A DNA stretch of 24,148 nt from a virus, in the IMG/VR virus record IMGVR_UViG_3300028025_000130, positions 1 through 24,148 of that record, one strand, 5' to 3'. The notes under the pieces are model-generated. The model saw only the letters and a list, made by a program, of their open reading frames with translations, ran no database searches and was not told the origin of the DNA. The position numbers and the translations under genes were made by a program. Positions 95-15,103 of the stretch are shown here, in pieces. How positions within the stretch are numbered: position 1 is the first letter of the stretch; the number at the start of each line of letters is the position of its first letter.

Positions 95-280
95 ATGAAG
101 ATGACAGCAGCAGCCAAGAAGATTGGCAAGGTCATGGGCGAATACAAATCTGGCACTTTGCACTCAGGCAAGGGCGGCAAGGTTGTGAAGAATCCAAAGC
201 AAGCCATTGCCATCGCAATGTCTGAAGCCAAGATGCCTATGCGCGGTCAACGCACTGCAAAGAACAAAGCCAAAAAGTGA
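95..280 (+). CDS. Small basic DUF6496-like phage protein
   Basis: A 61-residue, Lys-rich protein with no membrane segment. The pattern KVMGEYKSGTLHSGKGGKVV followed by K-QAIAIAMSEA matches the compact DUF6496 family, which is common in phages and some bacteria and has no assigned function. The length suits a single complete domain. The ATG at 95 has a good Shine-Dalgarno sequence, AAGGGG at 83-88, six bases upstream, which fixes the start. The stop overlaps the GTG start of the glycosyltransferase by two to three bases, so the two are probably translationally coupled. The strong positive charge could mean nucleic-acid binding, but that is inference. Confidence 0.75.
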   Translation: MKMTAAAKKIGKVMGEYKSGTLHSGKGGKVVKNPKQAIAIAMSEAKMPMRGQRTAKNKAKK

Positions 281-975
281 TTCCAATCTGCATTGCAACA
301 GTACACGGCAAGGGGTTGCCTGTACTGCTTGAGTCGATCAAGCAATACGCGCCAGAAGCGTTTGTCTATCTTCGCGGCCCTGAGTCCGTGATTTCCAAGA
401 TGGAGAACTTGTCCAATGTCCGCATCATGGTTGGCGAGGCGCGTAACTTTGGCGAGGACTACAACGAGATCATTGACGATGCGTTGAAGTACCACACAGC
501 TTGCATCGTCTGCAATGACGATGTTGTTCTTACCCCCACCAGCTACAGCAAGTTGCTGGATGATGTGGACACAATCCGATCTCTTGAACCGTCAGTTGGT
601 TGGGTTGCTGCGCGTAGCGATTCGGTTCGTGCTGTGCAGAACATTCGGTACAACCGAGAGTCAGACCCGTTGTATATGAACCGTTTTGCGTCCGAGGACT
701 ACATCTTCCCGACTGACGTTGTGGCTCCAATCTTTGCTTATGTCTCGCGTGATGCGTGGAATCATGGTCGGTTTGGACCGATCAATTGGTACTCTGACGA
801 TGCGTCCTGCTTGGATATGTCAGCCAAGGGATATACGCACTATGTCTCCACTTCTTATGTCCACCACGTTGGAAGCCAGACAGTTGGCACTGACGTGGAG
901 AAATTAAACGCGCAAGCCCGTCCGTGGATTGAGCAAAACAGACCGCAATATGTCAAAGAGTTTTTTGGTTCTTAA
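277..975 (+). CDS. GT2-like glycosyltransferase
   Basis: A 232-residue protein with the order of motifs expected of a GT-A fold, family 2 type glycosyltransferase, which moves a sugar from a nucleotide-sugar donor to an acceptor. It has an N-terminal beta strand (PICIATVHGKG) and a GEARNFGEDYNEII segment at 53-66. The acidic NDD triplet at residues 80-82 stands where the metal-binding DxD usually lies. A late WYSDDASCLDMSAKGY segment is followed by VHHVGSQTVG, the usual acceptor-side pattern. The start is GTG at 277, fused to the stop of the preceding gene; the ribosome site is weak, so coupling is likely. Its neighbours are a methyltransferase and head genes, so the target could be a virion protein, host surface glycan or DNA. 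Donor and acceptor cannot be read from the sequence. Confidence 0.75.
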   Translation: MIPICIATVHGKGLPVLLESIKQYAPEAFVYLRGPESVISKMENLSNVRIMVGEARNFGEDYNEIIDDALKYHTACIVCNDDVVLTPTSYSKLLDDVDTIRSLEPSVGWVAARSDSVRAVQNIRYNRESDPLYMNRFASEDYIFPTDVVAPIFAYVSRDAWNHGRFGPINWYSDDASCLDMSAKGYTHYVSTSYVHHVGSQTVGTDVEKLNAQARPWIEQNRPQYVKEFFGS

Positions 976-1483
976 TCTTGGTTCGGGTAAAGATTGGCGC
1001 GAGGACTGCATCAACGCAGACATCCAGCGCCGAATCAAATCCGATTGGTGTCTTGACATCCAAGACGTGCAGTGGGGTTCGCTGCTGGTTACACGCTTTG
1101 GCGACTTCCGAGTCAAGGCTGAGATGTTTGATGTGATTTTGGCAAACGACATTCTTGAACACGTCCCTGACTTGGTGAAGGCCATGACCAACTGCAAGGA
1201 GTTGCTGAAGGTTGGTGGCGAGATGCGCATCCATGTGCCTTACGACTTGTCGTATGGTGCTTGGCAAGACCCAACACACGTCCGAGCGTTCAACGAGAAG
1301 TCATGGCTGTACTACACGGATTGGCATTGGTATCTAGGTTGGGAAGATCGCTTCTTTGTGAAGCATCTGGAGTTCACGCTCTCAGAGGTCGGGGAAAGTC
1401 TAAAATTGCCACAAGATGAGATTTTGAGGACTCCACGGGCGGTGGACTCCATGTACGTCATATTGCAAAAGGGCAAGAAATGA
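950..1483 (+). CDS. Class I SAM-dependent methyltransferase
   Basis: A 177-residue Rossmann-fold methyltransferase. The glycine-rich SAM-binding loop LNLGSG is at residues 8-13 and an acidic residue ends strand two (NADIQ). The motif-IV-like region DVILANDILEHV is followed by LLKVGGEMRIHVP. The segment DPTHVRAFNEKSW is typical of methyltransferases found in polysaccharide or sugar-modification clusters, so a glycan acceptor is a reasonable guess, not a demonstration. A TTG at 929 would add seven residues, but ATG at 950 puts the SAM loop at the usual distance and is preferred. It overlaps the upstream glycosyltransferase by 26 bases, and its TGA overlaps the portal ATG (ATGA at 1480-1483), tying it to the head operon. 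Confidence 0.8.
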   Translation: MSKSFLVLNLGSGKDWREDCINADIQRRIKSDWCLDIQDVQWGSLLVTRFGDFRVKAEMFDVILANDILEHVPDLVKAMTNCKELLKVGGEMRIHVPYDLSYGAWQDPTHVRAFNEKSWLYYTDWHWYLGWEDRFFVKHLEFTLSEVGESLKLPQDEILRTPRAVDSMYVILQKGKK

Positions 1484-4017: not shown

Positions 4018-4029
4018 AGGAATTTGGAA

Positions 4030-5037
4030 ATGTCAGACGGAAACGCCAACCCCACAGGGAGCATCCCAACAGGTCCAATGTCAGTGGACGAAGCGTCCAA
4101 TGCACTCGCTCAAATGTTTGGTCCCGATGAGGGAGAAACCGAACAGGAAGTTGAGGCGCAGTTGCCATCCGATGAGGATGGCGCGGCATCTGTCGATGAA
4201 GAACTAGACGTGCAAGACGATGAGTCTAGTGATGAAACGAAAGATGAACAGTCGGAAGATTCTGATGAAACCGAGGAAGACGAACAGCCACAGGTTTTCA
4301 CCGTCAAGGTAGACGGTAAGGAAATCGAGGTGACGCTGGACGAACTCCAACAAGGTTACAGCAGGACACAAGACTACACACGAAAGACGCAACAGATCGC
4401 TGAAACCCGTAAAGCGGTTGAGGCTGAAGCTGCTGCTATTCGTGCCGAGCGTGAACAGTACGCTCAATTGTTGGGAGCGTTGCAACAGCAACTTGAGTCG
4501 GCTGGTGAACAGCCCGTTGATTGGGACCGTCTTTACGCAGAAGACCCCATTGAATGGGTACGCCAGAGAGAGTTGGCCCGTGACAAGCAAGAAAGACAAG
4601 CAGCTATTCAATCCGAGCAGCAGCGCCTTTCTCAATTGACACAGAAACAACGTGAGGAAGAATTCAAGGCAACACTTGCGAAAGAAAGTGAAGCATTGAT
4701 TCAAGCTATTCCTGAATGGAAGGACGCGAATAAAGCAAAGGCCGAAAAGGCTTTGTTAATCGAGTTTGGACAAAAGGTCGGCTACTCAGAAGACGAACTC
4801 AAGAATGTTTTTGACCATAGGGCTGTCTTGACGCTGCGTAAAGCTGCGCTGTATGACCAGATGGTGTCCAAGCGTAAGGACATCAAACCCGTAGTCAACA
4901 ACGGTCCACGCCCAGTAAAGCCTAGTGCTGCTGGTCGTGTCTCCTCAACAACTGAAGGTACTCGCGCAAAACAGCGTCTTGCAAAAACTGGTCGTGTCGA
5001 TGATGCGGCTAGAGCAATTGAACTTCTTTTGAAATGA
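4030..5037 (+). CDS. Capsid scaffolding (assembly) protein
   Basis: A 335-residue protein with the signature build of podovirus scaffolds. The N-terminal half is very acidic and disordered (about residues 20-90, long runs of Asp/Glu/Ser). A short conserved segment follows, FTVKVDGKEIEVTLDELQQG then YSRTQDYTRKTQQ. The rest is a long coiled coil (RKAVEAEAAAIRAEREQYAQ) and a basic C-terminus (KQRLAKTGRVDDAARAIELL). Scaffolds nucleate procapsid assembly on the portal and leave before or during packaging. The ATG at 4030 lies eight bases after AAAGGA (4016-4021), which makes it a better start than the TTG at 4024. The major capsid gene follows nine bases later. Confidence 0.85.
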   Translation: MSDGNANPTGSIPTGPMSVDEASNALAQMFGPDEGETEQEVEAQLPSDEDGAASVDEELDVQDDESSDETKDEQSEDSDETEEDEQPQVFTVKVDGKEIEVTLDELQQGYSRTQDYTRKTQQIAETRKAVEAEAAAIRAEREQYAQLLGALQQQLESAGEQPVDWDRLYAEDPIEWVRQRELARDKQERQAAIQSEQQRLSQLTQKQREEEFKATLAKESEALIQAIPEWKDANKAKAEKALLIEFGQKVGYSEDELKNVFDHRAVLTLRKAALYDQMVSKRKDIKPVVNNGPRPVKPSAAGRVSSTTEGTRAKQRLAKTGRVDDAARAIELLLK

Positions 5038-5046
5038 GGCACTTAA

Positions 5047-6009
5047 ATGGCTATCGTAACTAACACCTTTACCACCTTCGATGCCAAAGGCATCCGTGAA
5101 GACCTGTCAAACGTCATCACCAACATCGCTCCTGAAGAAACTCCTTACATGAGCAACATCGGTCGTGAGTCAATCAGCAATTCGTTGTTCGAGTGGCAAA
5201 CAGACACATTGGCATCTGCCGCTGCTAACAAGCAGTTGGAAGGTGACGATGTGACTTCTTTTGACGCTGTTGTCGCAACTGTGCGTTTGCAAAACTACGC
5301 TCAGATCAGCCGCAAGACAATCGTTTTGTCTGCTACTGAAGAAACCGTCAACAAGGCTGGTCGCAAGTCTGAATTGGCTTACCAGATCGCCAAGCGCGGC
5401 GCTGAGTTGAAGCGTGACCAAGAATTCACAATGCTTAACGGCGCTGTGGCTGCTGCTGGTAACACTACAACTGCCCGTGGCACTGCCTCTTTGGGCGCTT
5501 TCGTGAAGACAAACGTGGATATGCAAACGAACGGTGCAAACCCTTCGTACACCACTTTGCCTAACAGCGCGCGTACTGACGGCAACGTTCGTACATTCAC
5601 CGAAACCATCTTGAAGAACGTGATTCAACAAGTGTGGACTGCTGGTGGTACACCAAAGATGTTGATGTGCGGTCCAGTGAACAAGCAGCGCGTGTCTGGC
5701 TTCTCTGGCATTGCATCAAGCCGCTTCAACATTGACGGTGGCGCAAAGCCAGCAACTTTGGTTGGCGCTGTTGACATCTATGTGTCTGACTTCGGCAACG
5801 TGCAAGTGATCGCAAACCGCTTCCAGCGTGAGCGTGACGCATGGGTGATCGACCCTGACATGGCTAAGATGACCACTCTGCGTCCTTACCAACAAGTTGA
5901 ACTCGCCAAGACAGGTGACGCTGAGAAGCGTATGCTGATCGTTGAGTGGGGTCACAAAGTGTTGGCTGAGAACGGCATGGGCTTGGCTGCTGACTTGGTA
6001 ACTTCTTAA
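5047..6009 (+). CDS. Major capsid protein, DUF5309/SU10 type
   Basis: A 320-residue HK97-fold major capsid protein, the shell subunit. The opening TFTTFDAKGIREDLSNVITN followed by IAPEETPYMSNIG, and the segment WQTDTLASAAANKQLEGDD, are hallmarks of the DUF5309 (SU10-like) capsid family. So is the KAGRKSELAYQIAKRGAELK helix, which corresponds to the long spine helix of the fold. The length is normal for the family. No maturation protease is seen nearby. ATG at 5047 has an AGG seven bases upstream. The gene is directly followed by a strong intrinsic terminator (6024-6050), a usual arrangement for the most highly expressed virion gene. Confidence 0.92.
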   Translation: MAIVTNTFTTFDAKGIREDLSNVITNIAPEETPYMSNIGRESISNSLFEWQTDTLASAAANKQLEGDDVTSFDAVVATVRLQNYAQISRKTIVLSATEETVNKAGRKSELAYQIAKRGAELKRDQEFTMLNGAVAAAGNTTTARGTASLGAFVKTNVDMQTNGANPSYTTLPNSARTDGNVRTFTETILKNVIQQVWTAGGTPKMLMCGPVNKQRVSGFSGIASSRFNIDGGAKPATLVGAVDIYVSDFGNVQVIANRFQRERDAWVIDPDMAKMTTLRPYQQVELAKTGDAEKRMLIVEWGHKVLAENGMGLAADLVTS

Positions 6010-6023
6010 TCGAAGTAACGGAA

Positions 6024-6050
6024 GGGGCGGGGAAACCTGCCCCTTTTTTT
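6024..6050 (+). terminator. Intrinsic terminator after the capsid gene
   Basis: GGGGCGGG at 6024-6031 pairs with CCTGCCCC at 6036-6043 (eight pairs, one of them G-T) around a GAAA tetraloop at 6032-6035. Seven T residues follow at 6044-6050. It starts 14 bases after the capsid stop and is the only clear rho-independent terminator I see in the window. Genes downstream need read-through or their own promoter. Confidence 0.92.
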
Positions 6051-6371: not shown

Positions 6372-7046
6372 ATGACACAAGAAACCGTTAAATACATTGC
6401 AGTATGCACACCAGCGAGAGATATGGTCCATGCGAACTTCACGTTCTGCTTGGTCAATATGGTGGCGTACCACACACTCAACACGCCTGATGCGATCTGC
6501 CTGAAGATCAACCAAGGCACTCTGATTCAAAACCAACGCGCAGATTTGTGCCTTGAGGCAATGCGTGAGGACTGCACCCACGTCTTGTTTATTGATTCAG
6601 ACATGACCTTTCCGCAGGACATGGTTGGTCGTTTGCTGGCTCACGATAAGGACATCGTGGCAACCAACTGCGCAAGGCGCAGGATGCCAACAGGACCAAC
6701 AGCCCGTGGCTTGGATGGTCAACTTATCTATTCAATGCCTGACTCCACTGGTCTTGAGGAAGTCGAGTCAATTGGCATGGGCGTGATGCTGATTTCACGC
6801 AAGGTTTTTGAGTCATTGTCAGAGCCTTGGTTTGAAACTCCTTGGCGTACAGACAAGCGTGGCTATATTGGCGAGGACGTGTTCTTCTGCCGTAAAGCAA
6901 CGGCTGCTGGTTTTAAAATCTACATTGACCACGATGTGTCCAAAGAGATTGGGCATATCGGTACATTTGAGTTCAAGCATGACCACACTTGGGTGATGAA
7001 GGACTTGGAGAAGGCTCAGAAGGAAGCGTCCAAACCAGACGCTTGA
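6372..7046 (+). CDS. Second glycosyltransferase-like protein (GT-A fold)
   Basis: A 224-residue protein with GT-A glycosyltransferase features. It opens with VKYIAVCTPARDMVHANF, followed by LIQNQRADLCLEAMREDCTH leading into VLFIDSDM, where DSD at residues 75-77 is the DxD metal/nucleotide-sugar motif. A GMGVMLISRKVFE strand and GEDVFFCRKATAAGFKIYID follow, the usual acceptor-binding acidic block. The late EIGHIGTFEF contains a His often used for metal binding. It is not an obvious copy of the glycosyltransferase at 277; only the fold is shared. It lies between capsid and adaptor genes, so the product may decorate virion proteins or host glycans; the acceptor is unknown. The ribosome site before ATG 6372 is weak (an A-run follows the previous stop). 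Confidence 0.75.
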   Translation: MTQETVKYIAVCTPARDMVHANFTFCLVNMVAYHTLNTPDAICLKINQGTLIQNQRADLCLEAMREDCTHVLFIDSDMTFPQDMVGRLLAHDKDIVATNCARRRMPTGPTARGLDGQLIYSMPDSTGLEEVESIGMGVMLISRKVFESLSEPWFETPWRTDKRGYIGEDVFFCRKATAAGFKIYIDHDVSKEIGHIGTFEFKHDHTWVMKDLEKAQKEASKPDA

Positions 7047-7076: not shown

Positions 7077-7697
7077 ATGGCACTCAATACATACGCAACC
7101 CTAAAGTCAGCCATCGCGGATTTTCTAAACCGCGATGACTTAACGTCTGTCATCCCTACATTTATCACTCTGGCAGAGTCGAAGTTCAACCGAGCAATTC
7201 GCACTCGCCAGATGATTAAACGTGCAACAGCGACTGTGGACGGTCGCTTTTTTGCCATGCCTACGGACTTCCTAGAAGCTCGTAGTTTCCAGTTGAACAC
7301 CAACCCGATCACCGTGTTGGAGTATGTCACTGAAGGCTATGGCAACACCTTAAACGCCAATGTGTACATATCTTCTGGAAAGCCATCACGGTTCACAGTT
7401 GTCGGCACTCAGTTGGAAGTCATCCCTGCGCCTGACTCGTCTTATGACGCAGAATTGACTTACTACTCAAAGATTGCTGCATTGGCTGATGACAACACCA
7501 GCAACTGGTTGCTGATTGCTAACCCTGACATCTACTTGTACGGTTCTTTGCTTCAGTCTGCACCGTACTTGAAGGACGATGCACGAATTGCGGTGTGGGC
7601 GCAGCTCTACACTGCTTGTGTGGATGAATTGAACGTATCAGATCAAAGGGCATCTGTTGCGTCTACTCTTGTTTCACGCGCCCGAACATTTGGATAA
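7077..7697 (+). CDS. Head-tail adaptor protein (SU10 adaptor-like)
   Basis: A 206-residue helical connector protein that would sit under the portal and join it to the tail. The N-terminal pattern TYATLKSAIADFLNRDDLTS, then FITLAESKFNRAIRTRQMI, is the standard start of SU10-type adaptors (also comparable to P22 gp4 and T7 gp11 in role). A beta insertion (PSRFTVVGTQLEVIPAP, then YDAELTYYSKIAAL) and a C-terminal helical region (PDIYLYGSLLQSAPYLKDD) follow, all typical. The length fits. Purines GGAACGGAAG precede the ATG at 7077. Position after the capsid and before fibre genes agrees with the role. Confidence 0.85.
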   Translation: MALNTYATLKSAIADFLNRDDLTSVIPTFITLAESKFNRAIRTRQMIKRATATVDGRFFAMPTDFLEARSFQLNTNPITVLEYVTEGYGNTLNANVYISSGKPSRFTVVGTQLEVIPAPDSSYDAELTYYSKIAALADDNTSNWLLIANPDIYLYGSLLQSAPYLKDDARIAVWAQLYTACVDELNVSDQRASVASTLVSRARTFG

Positions 7698-7702
7698 ACA
7701 TC

Positions 7703-8089
7703 ATGGCAGCAATGAGCAACTACTTGGAGACAGCATTGGTCAATGCTGTTTTGCGCAACACTTCGTACACAAGCCCAACGACTGTGTACGTTGGTTTGTT
7801 TACGTCTGACCCGACTGATGCTGGTTCAGGCACTGAGGTGTCTGGTGGTTCTTATACGCGCAAGGCTATGGCCTTCAGCTCTCCATCCAACGGTGCAACA
7901 TCCAATAGCTCTGCTGTGGAGTTTGATCAAGCCACTGCTTCTTGGGGAACTGTCACGCACTTTGGTTTGTTTGACGCATCTTCGTCTGGCAACTTGTTGC
8001 TGCATGGGGCTTTGACTACATCCAAGACTATTGATAACGGCGATGTATTCAAGTTCGCAACTTCTGCTCTGACTGCAACCTTCGCATAA
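7703..8089 (+). CDS. Gp80-like small tail-fibre/decoration protein
   Basis: A 128-residue, Ser/Thr/Gly-rich beta protein. SNYLETALVNAVLRNTSYTS followed by TVYVGLFTSDPTDAGSGTE is the recognised opening of a phage family usually annotated as tail-fibre or Gp80-like. The repeated beta strands (YTRKAMAFSSPS, ASWGTVTHFGLFD, GNLLLHGAL) and final FKFATSALTATF fit that family from end to end. The product is presumably a virion component near the tail or fibre attachment. ATG at 7703 is six bases after the adaptor stop; a second in-frame ATG at 7712 gives the family's usual MSNYLE start and could be the true one. The exact place in the virion is unknown. Confidence 0.7.
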   Translation: MAAMSNYLETALVNAVLRNTSYTSPTTVYVGLFTSDPTDAGSGTEVSGGSYTRKAMAFSSPSNGATSNSSAVEFDQATASWGTVTHFGLFDASSSGNLLLHGALTTSKTIDNGDVFKFATSALTATFA

Positions 8090-14059: not shown

Positions 14060-14517
14060 TGGTAAACCCTTGGATGATTATTGGCGTTATCTTCGTGGTT
14101 CTTGGAACGTACAAGTACGGTACGCATGAGGGCTACAAGGAGCGCGATGCAGAGATGCAAGTTGAGATCGCAAGGCTCAATGAGGAATCTCGCGCCAAGG
14201 AGCAAAAGCTCTCTGAAGACTTGAACCAGACATCTTCACAACTGAAAGAGGCAAACGATGTTGTCACCAAAAAACAAACTGATCTTGATGCTGCCATTCG
14301 TTCTGGCAGGGTGCGCTTCGGCTCCTCAAGTTGCGTACAAACCGCCACAAATACCACCCCTGCCAGCGGAAATCAAACCGATGCAAGCGAATCTGACAGA
14401 CAGACTCTCCTCCTTATTGCTCAACTCATCGCAGAAGGAGATCAAGCCATCAACAGACTCAACGCCTGTATCGCGGCCTACAACCAAGTAAGGGACACGA
14501 TCAATGGTCAACGCTGA
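14059..14517 (+). CDS. Rz: i-spanin (Rz-like)
   Basis: A 152-residue inner-membrane spanin. An N-terminal anchor (WMIIGVIFVVLGTYKYG, residues 5-21) is followed by a long coiled coil (YKERDAEMQVEIARLNEESR to about residue 80). A C-terminal helical domain has RFGSSSCVQ and AINRLNACIAAYNQVRD, as in Rz proteins. It would cross the periplasm and pair with the Rz1 lipoprotein to fuse inner and outer membranes at the last step of lysis. Evidence is the fold pattern, plus an Rz1-like lipoprotein in another frame inside it and the endolysin directly after. TGATG overlap with the previous gene; 14-base overlap with the endolysin. Confidence 0.85.
   Translation: MVNPWMIIGVIFVVLGTYKYGTHEGYKERDAEMQVEIARLNEESRAKEQKLSEDLNQTSSQLKEANDVVTKKQTDLDAAIRSGRVRFGSSSCVQTATNTTPASGNQTDASESDRQTLLLIAQLIAEGDQAINRLNACIAAYNQVRDTINGQR
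14258..14491 (+). CDS. Rz1: o-spanin (Rz1-like), nested in Rz
   Basis: A 77-residue protein read in a different frame, wholly inside Rz. It has a signal peptide with lipobox VLAGC (Cys at 19) and a Pro-rich mature start (YKPPQIPPLPAEIKP). Both are typical of Rz1-like outer-membrane lipoproteins, which pair with Rz. Full embedding of Rz1 in Rz is known from lambda-type arrangements. The mature protein has about 59 residues, a usual size. Confidence 0.88.
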   Translation: MLSPKNKLILMLPFVLAGCASAPQVAYKPPQIPPLPAEIKPMQANLTDRLSSLLLNSSQKEIKPSTDSTPVSRPTTK

Positions 14518-15103
14518 ACAATTAGCCAAGCTCCACATTAGTGCTGAATGGGTTGATGCGCTCAATGAGACATTTGAGCGTTTTGGAATCAATACGCCAC
14601 GCCAACAGGCTGCTTTCATTGGGCAGTGTGGACATGAGTGCGGCAACTTCAAAGTGCTTGAGGAAAACCTTAACTATCGTGCAGCAACCTTGATGAAGCT
14701 GTGGCCTAAACGCTTCCCAACGCAAGAGGTTGCCAATGGATACGAGAAAAACCCAAAGAAAATTGCAAACATGGTCTATGCTTCTCGCATGGGTAACCGT
14801 GATGAGTCATCTGGGGATGGTTACCGTTTTCGCGGTCGTGGGTGTATTCAGCTTACTGGTCATGCTAATTATTTCCACGCTGGTAAAGCATTGGCAATTG
14901 ATTTTGTTGCTGACCCTGACTTGGTGGGTACTCCAAAGTATGCAGCCCTGACTGCTGGCTGGTTCTGGTCAACGCACAACTGCAACGTCTTGGCTGAAGC
15001 CGCAGATTGGATTGCCTTGACGAAGAAAATCAACGGCGGGACGATAGGTTTGGATGCCCGCATCAAACACACCAATGAAGCACTGGCGGTTTTGCAGGGC
15101 TAA
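14504..15103 (+). CDS. GH19 chitinase-type endolysin
   Basis: A 199-residue, single-domain enzyme of glycoside hydrolase family 19 type, expected to cut peptidoglycan at the end of infection. Residues QAAFIGQCGHECGNFKVLEE carry the likely catalytic Glu pair E45 (HEC) and E54 (EENLNY). DGYRFRGRGCIQLTG at 105-119 and KKINGGTIGLD near 174-184 are standard family motifs. There is no signal peptide or SAR segment, so it needs a holin to reach the wall. No separate wall-binding domain is seen. It overlaps Rz by 14 bases; an endolysin following its spanins is an unusual but possible order. Confidence 0.92.
   Translation: MVNAEQLAKLHISAEWVDALNETFERFGINTPRQQAAFIGQCGHECGNFKVLEENLNYRAATLMKLWPKRFPTQEVANGYEKNPKKIANMVYASRMGNRDESSGDGYRFRGRGCIQLTGHANYFHAGKALAIDFVADPDLVGTPKYAALTAGWFWSTHNCNVLAEAADWIALTKKINGGTIGLDARIKHTNEALAVLQG

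Follow-up and report, generated by a model that had tools for sequence, protein, structure and literature searches.

Why does a tailed phage carry a glycosyltransferase gene and a methyltransferase gene directly at its portal gene, and what would the two enzymes modify? The question is raised by a virus record of IMG/VR, analyzed here at its full length of 24,148 bases (the window). It stems from a tailed phage that has not been cultivated and whose portal, capsid and adaptor genes are of the SU10 type. The original prediction saw two enzymes at this place, designated here GT1 (the glycosyltransferase) and MT (the methyltransferase). Both were retained in our analysis, but the two-enzyme picture had overlooked a second glycosyltransferase gene of the window, GT2b (6372–7046), as well as the swapping of the methyltransferase among related phages.

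Organization of the Locus

The following features of the window are referred to below:

95–280, + strand: DUF6496 gene, 61 aa, strongly basic, net charge +14 (PF20106, 43 bits, cut-off 24)
277–975, + strand: GT1, GT-A fold glycosyltransferase as modelled, 232 aa, GTG start
950–1483, + strand: MT, class I SAM-dependent methyltransferase, 177 aa, ATG start, with an AWQDPTH segment
1480–3753, + strand: SU10-type portal gene (PF23899, 620.8 bits)
4024–5037, + strand: head scaffolding protein (phrog_3927, 223.3 bits)
5047–6009, + strand: SU10-type major capsid protein (PF17236, 298.4 bits), putative glycan acceptor
6020–6047, + strand: terminator-like stem 3' of the capsid gene, 12 pairs, 7 of them GC (the terminator scan was overall near chance, 12 found against 8.5 expected)
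6372–7046, + strand: GT2b, second glycosyltransferase, 224 aa (PF03452 Anp1, 31.6 bits, cut-off 28.8; phrog_1574)
7077–7697, + strand: SU10-type adaptor (PF24175, 117.6 bits)
7703–8089, + strand: GP4 fiber I (gp80)-like protein, Ser/Thr-rich by eye (PF23140, 175.3 bits), putative glycan acceptor

The genes in front of the portal gene are packed tightly. The TGA stop of the DUF6496 gene overlaps the GTG start of GT1 by 4 bp, a stretch of 26 bp is common to GT1 and MT, and the last 4 bp of MT (1480–1483) also belong to the portal gene; the last two overlaps had been predicted and are measured here. The mechanical open reading frame of MT begins with TTG at 929. We took ATG 950 as the preferred start, because all 71 distinct complete MT proteins (71/71) start with ATG at the equivalent position. 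The 26-bp overlap of GT1 and MT was kept in 131 of 134 loci (counted without de-duplication by contig), while in the other three the genes are 483 bp apart; in L029, L030 and L031 a spacer of about 480 bp separates them and the 26-bp overlap is lacking.

The GT1 and MT frames are real genes under strong purifying selection: in comparisons with 20 relatives their dN/dS values, where computable, were 0.03–0.30 and 0.03–0.28, respectively. No promoter-like site was found on the + strand before position 4636, in a promoter scan that was overall no better than chance. Together with the overlaps, this makes it probable that GT1 and MT are co-transcribed with the head genes, in agreement with the co-expression proposed originally.

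Several other features of the region should be mentioned. Small basic proteins of the DUF6496 and DUF6321 types recur between the terminase and portal genes (95–280 in the window; e.g., L303:1337–1630), and their genes shift their place relative to GT1 and MT among the loci. The adaptor gene (7077–7697) exists in two forms, with 92–98% identity to that of the window in L016 and L013 and 51–55% in most other loci. Since the portal and capsid genes of these loci are otherwise close, the two forms suggest recombination at the head-tail boundary. Further downstream, a Glyco_hydro_19 (chitinase class I-like) protein encoded at 14504–15103, near holin-like and Rz-like spanin genes, is probably the endolysin.

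Fold and Distribution of GT1

No family match beyond chance was obtained for GT1 in Pfam, PHROG or NCBIfam; the best matches in these libraries, CD225 (E 0.07) and phrog_17441 (E 0.36), were rejected as chance. A PDB sequence-profile search with GT1 likewise returned no glycosyltransferase. The structure of the protein was modelled with AF2 from a 31-sequence alignment (pLDDT 87, pTM 0.87). The model matches the folds of polypeptide GalNAc-transferase 2 (Z 17.6, rmsd 4.4, 219 aligned) and chondroitin polymerase (Z 17.1, rmsd 2.9, 195 aligned), and its best PDB matches in Foldseek are glycosyltransferases (best E 1.2e-8).

The motifs of GT1 are almost invariant among 157 distinct relatives. The metal-motif position is NDD in 154 and DDD in three of them, the motifs SDD, HH and GS occur in all (157/157 each), and the fifth residue past SDD is D (154) or E (3). 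By analogy with other GT-A enzymes, NDD is presumably the DXD-type metal/nucleotide motif, and SDD with the acidic residue behind it the acidic catalytic region farther downstream. By its predicted fold, GT1 is clearly a GT-A glycosyltransferase with intact catalytic motifs. The label "GT2-like" given to it originally thus holds at the level of fold (GT-A model, PDB fold matches) but not at that of a named family, and GT1 belongs to a glycosyltransferase group that is unnamed in Pfam, PHROG and NCBIfam. Among the tabulated fold matches to the GT1 model there is also a 450-aa protein of an uncultured Caudovirales phage (A0A6J5KT09), titled AdoMet_MTases, which is possibly another fusion of a glycosyltransferase with a methyltransferase.

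A relative of GT1 is encoded in 343 of 346 pattern-matched IMG/VR stretches. A search of 50,697 phage records gave no match at 1e-5, with chance partial matches only at E values up to 10, and we found no cultured phage record carrying GT1. Six loci were detected in bacterial genomes. L264 is a short contig with the order GT1-MT-portal, a binned phage fragment; L265 resembles a phage contig and includes an SU10 adaptor gene; L266 encodes a GT1 relative of 34% identity beside genes that appear non-phage by eye; and L267–L269 comprise short partial matches and a frame interrupted by stops. No host was assigned through these six loci.

Two of the collected arrangements deserve mention in their own right. 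In L265 (2824–11697, binned as an Opitutae genome), genes for collagen-repeat proteins lie next to the gene of a GT1 relative (41% identity), which in turn overlaps a GT2-TPR gene, and these collagen-like proteins could be glycan acceptors. A tandem duplication of GT1 was revealed in L048, L049 and L050 (G006:C1:12964–14330); the second copy in G006 has 36% identity to GT1 of the window.

MT and the Third Enzyme, GT2b

As predicted, MT was confirmed as a class I SAM-dependent methyltransferase by Pfam scores, motifs and a model of moderate confidence. Its scores exceed the cut-offs of both PF13489 (27.6 bits, cut-off 27) and PF08241 (28.1 bits, cut-off 21.2). The model (pLDDT 73) agrees with this assignment (best fold match Z 10.2, rmsd 3.7, 150 aligned), and the PDB sequence-profile search gave weak methyltransferase matches only. 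Among 124 MT sequences, the segment that we take to be the glycine-rich SAM loop is NLGSG in 119 and NLGCG in five. The residues D24 (presumably the acidic ribose-binding residue), D36, D67 and EH are present in all of them (124/124), and AWQDPTH in 122.

The third enzyme, GT2b, is an Anp1/phrog_1574-type glycosyltransferase encoded between the capsid and adaptor genes. Its motif reads DSD in 105 of 116 sequences, DTD in 10 and DAD in one, and its dN/dS values of 0.02–0.10 indicate the strongest constraint among the three enzymes. Every GT1 locus extending as far as the adaptor gene also contains GT2b (109/109, counted without de-duplication by contig). It also occurs without GT1 in sister phages, namely in 19 of 33 GT1-less loci with enough flanking sequence. 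None of GT1, MT and GT2b has a transmembrane segment in hydropathy analysis, which predicts soluble enzymes.

Sugar Transfer and Methylation Are Linked in Related Proteins and Loci

In the named records of phages and plasmids, the closest relatives of MT form part of larger proteins that also contain a glycosyltransferase domain, which is of two different kinds. Protein g90 of cyanophage S-CRM01 (417 aa) consists of an N-terminal GT2 domain (PF00535, 40.9 bits) and a C-terminal methyltransferase domain (PF08241, 38.3 bits), the latter being 45% identical to MT over 62 aa, a match that covers only 62 of the 177 residues of MT. In plasmids, a match to MT was found in only two of 72,556 records, both from Mesorhizobium, where the C-terminal part of the protein is 47% identical to MT over 171 aa. 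The Mesorhizobium fusion that was scanned has an N-terminal Glyco_trans_1_2 domain, and next to it lie a gene of the GT25 type and two genes annotated as methyltransferases. The original prediction had connected the DPTHVRAFNEKSW (DPTHV) segment of MT with glycans; this suggestion is borne out to the extent that a variant form of the segment is present in both fusion proteins.

We then compared the genes located behind GT1 in 132 distinct loci with both the terminase and portal genes in view. MT was present in 109 of them, an unrelated methyltransferase (MTB, phrog_32762) in eight and a further PF00535 glycosyltransferase (GT2c) alone in three, while no such gene was detected in 12. Because the searches that yielded the loci started from GT1, MT and two sister portals, these values are not population frequencies. 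After removal of 22 MT-seeded loci, the numbers for the remaining 110 were 87, eight, three and 12, respectively. MT and MTB were never found together (0 loci), and the similarity between them is just 31% over 32 aa (E 0.004).

On a portal tree of 123 rows, the presence of GT1 required two changes, and the tailoring gene nine changes among the GT1-bearing rows; in the branch with the close relatives of the window, MT was present in 32 of 32 rows. The tree was built by a quick method for 123 of 193 loci. Portals shorter than 400 aa (27 rows, including three MTB, two GT2c-only and two GT1-only loci) were dropped, and 43 near-copies of MT-bearing or GT1-less rows were thinned. The phage record with the portal closest to that of the window (60%) is MW202879; this record lacks both GT1 and MT, and its terminase-portal slot (L136:4646–5437) encodes a 263-aa protein that matches nothing in Pfam.

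The relatives of MTB show a similar association. In S-CBS4, phiPsal1, Zuko and MW202524 they lie next to genes whose annotation is glycosyltransferase or sugar-polymer synthase (4/4), and in two of these four phages they stand beside portal or capsid genes.

Thus, the gene overlap, the two glycosyltransferase-methyltransferase fusions and the replacement of MT behind the same GT1 by an unrelated methyltransferase or a further glycosyltransferase support the view that sugar transfer and methylation belong together, as had been supposed. Judging from these sequence comparisons, MT probably methylates a sugar. Methylation appears to be dispensable, since 12 of the 132 GT1 loci contain no detected tailoring gene.

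A Putative Glycan Pathway and Its Target

We hypothesize that GT1 and MT are consecutive enzymes of a single glycan pathway operating alongside the production of the phage head, presumably late in infection. GT2b would put the first sugar on a virion protein, a position in the order suggested by its wider spread and stronger conservation. GT1 would extend the glycan using a nucleotide sugar supplied by the host, and MT would cap it with a methyl group. Neither NTP_transferase nor Epimerase genes were found in ten related records (0/10 each), and the sugar donor is therefore taken to be host-made. GT1 has no characterised relative that would point to a particular donor or acceptor; the acceptor would be the capsid protein, the fiber or another head protein. 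Such a glycan might mask the virion or alter adsorption, as suggested originally.

That the glycan is built on a virion protein during head production is the reading we favor, with somewhat better than even confidence. A virion target is made likelier by the overlap with the head genes, the predicted solubility of the enzymes, the lack of an integrase gene in ten related records of 36–44 kb (0/10; the records are possibly incomplete) and the existence of glycosyltransferase-methyltransferase cassettes beside head genes elsewhere. A location among head genes does not in itself prove that the virion is modified. In addition, the MTB relative of Zuko sits among small genes at the genome end, away from the head genes, and g90 of S-CRM01 is likewise encoded outside the head genes.

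The strongest competing explanation, to which we assign a clearly smaller share of confidence, places the modification on the host. During infection, the pair would act on a glycan of the cell surface (LPS, O-antigen or a capsule precursor), possibly so that other phages are kept out or progeny stay clear of debris. The nearest bacterial relative of MT, the Mesorhizobium fusion, fits this explanation, for it lies in what appears to be a surface-glycan cluster on a plasmid, with a GT25 gene (named "LPS biosynthesis protein" in Pfam), and the repeated swaps of the tailoring gene would also suit an arms race at the surface. However, the tight coupling to the head genes and the lack of transmembrane segments in all three enzymes argue against it, and the integrase-free records give no sign of lysogenic conversion. 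A virion target is thus likely to be the better of the two; it is plausible and is backed by precedents in other viruses.

It is also conceivable, though unlikely, that the two functions are separate, GT1 glycosylating its substrate and MT methylating a protein directly, e.g., at capsid lysines. Methylation of phage capsid lysines does exist; in Cellulophaga phages it is attributed to host enzymes, according to excerpts of PMC13288928. Many of the fold matches of MT are non-sugar methyltransferases, a point in favor of separate functions. This is outweighed in our opinion by the fusion of MT-type domains to two different kinds of glycosyltransferase and by the unrelated methyltransferase that stands in for MT at its position and has relatives accompanying glycosyltransferases in other phages. 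Finally, glycosylated and methylated (hypermodified) bases in the phage DNA, suggested by the fact that some phage glycosyltransferases act on DNA, are a most improbable product of the pair and were set aside because the thymidylate-synthase-family gene PF00303 is missing from all ten related records (0/10, possibly incomplete), and both the head-gene position and the fusion of an MT-type domain with a glycosyltransferase in a bacterial carbohydrate cluster disagree with them.

Returning to the virion glycan, a more specific scheme can be proposed only tentatively: the head cluster may encode a modular assembly line consisting of the widespread and highly conserved GT2b as the first glycosyltransferase, the clade-specific GT1 as the second and an exchangeable capping gene, so that close relatives would differ in their sugar caps while their particles are otherwise alike. 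The capping gene would be either of the two unrelated methyltransferases, a third glycosyltransferase, or nothing. Such differences would resemble serotype switching, but on the virus.

Comparison With Known Systems

The closest parallel in gene arrangement is mycobacteriophage Corndog, in which gp35–gp38, located between the portal and protease genes, comprise an O-methyltransferase, two glycosyltransferases and a putative N-acetylglucosaminyltransferase (excerpts of PMC4351075). Protein or virion glycosylation of Corndog is reported (Freeman et al., 2023, as cited in excerpts of PMC12363180). In Corndog as in the phage of the window, genes for a glycosyltransferase and a methyltransferase are neighbors of the portal gene inside the head cluster, and for Corndog capsid modification has been proposed or reported. 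The two differ in that Corndog is a mycobacterial siphovirus with the order portal, enzymes, protease, whereas in the SU10-type phage the enzymes precede the portal gene.

A parallel in activity is provided by chlorovirus PBCV-1. Excerpts of PMC9614988 describe A064R as combining two rhamnosyltransferases with a sugar O-methyltransferase acting on the capsid glycan, and A064R together with A061L as supplying the rhamnosyltransferases and sugar O-methyltransferases for the glycan of the major capsid protein. There, viral glycosyltransferase and methyltransferase activities work in turn on one capsid-protein glycan, as is proposed from the genes for the phage of the window. PBCV-1, however, is a virus of eukaryotic algae and uses one three-domain protein plus a separate methyltransferase.

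Among phage records, the best match to MT is the C-terminal domain of S-CRM01 g90, with GAWQDPTHV common to both; unlike MT, this domain is fused to a recognisable PF00535 GT2. Cassettes of glycosyltransferase and SAM methyltransferase genes beside portal or capsid genes are present in Synechococcus phage S-CBS4 (gp14–gp16) and Pontimonas phage phiPsal1 (gp10–gp12), but the methyltransferase of these cassettes is not MT and belongs to the MTB type of the sister phages, and their glycosyltransferases are of other kinds as annotated. In the Streptomyces phage Zuko, the MTB relative is near glycosyltransferase genes but not among the head genes.

Implications

Cassettes of glycosyltransferase and methyltransferase genes among phage head genes are thus already known, and the GT1-MT pair adds another one. 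We found no description of this phage group or gene pair in the literature, as judged by titles and the openings of abstracts. It is less usual that the glycosyltransferase belongs to an unnamed family and that close relatives exchange two unrelated methyltransferases at a single position. To our knowledge, phage-encoded enzymes have been shown to glycosylate virions in only a few cultured phages, mainly those of mycobacteria. If the proposed pathway is correct, the fixation of a methyl-capped glycan cassette in a large group of uncultivated phages, together with the swapping of its capping enzyme between close relatives, would point to glycan-coated particles as a common phenomenon in nature and to changing selection on them. 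The swapped capping enzymes would then offer a natural set of variants for testing the role of such a coat in adsorption, avoidance of debris and stability.
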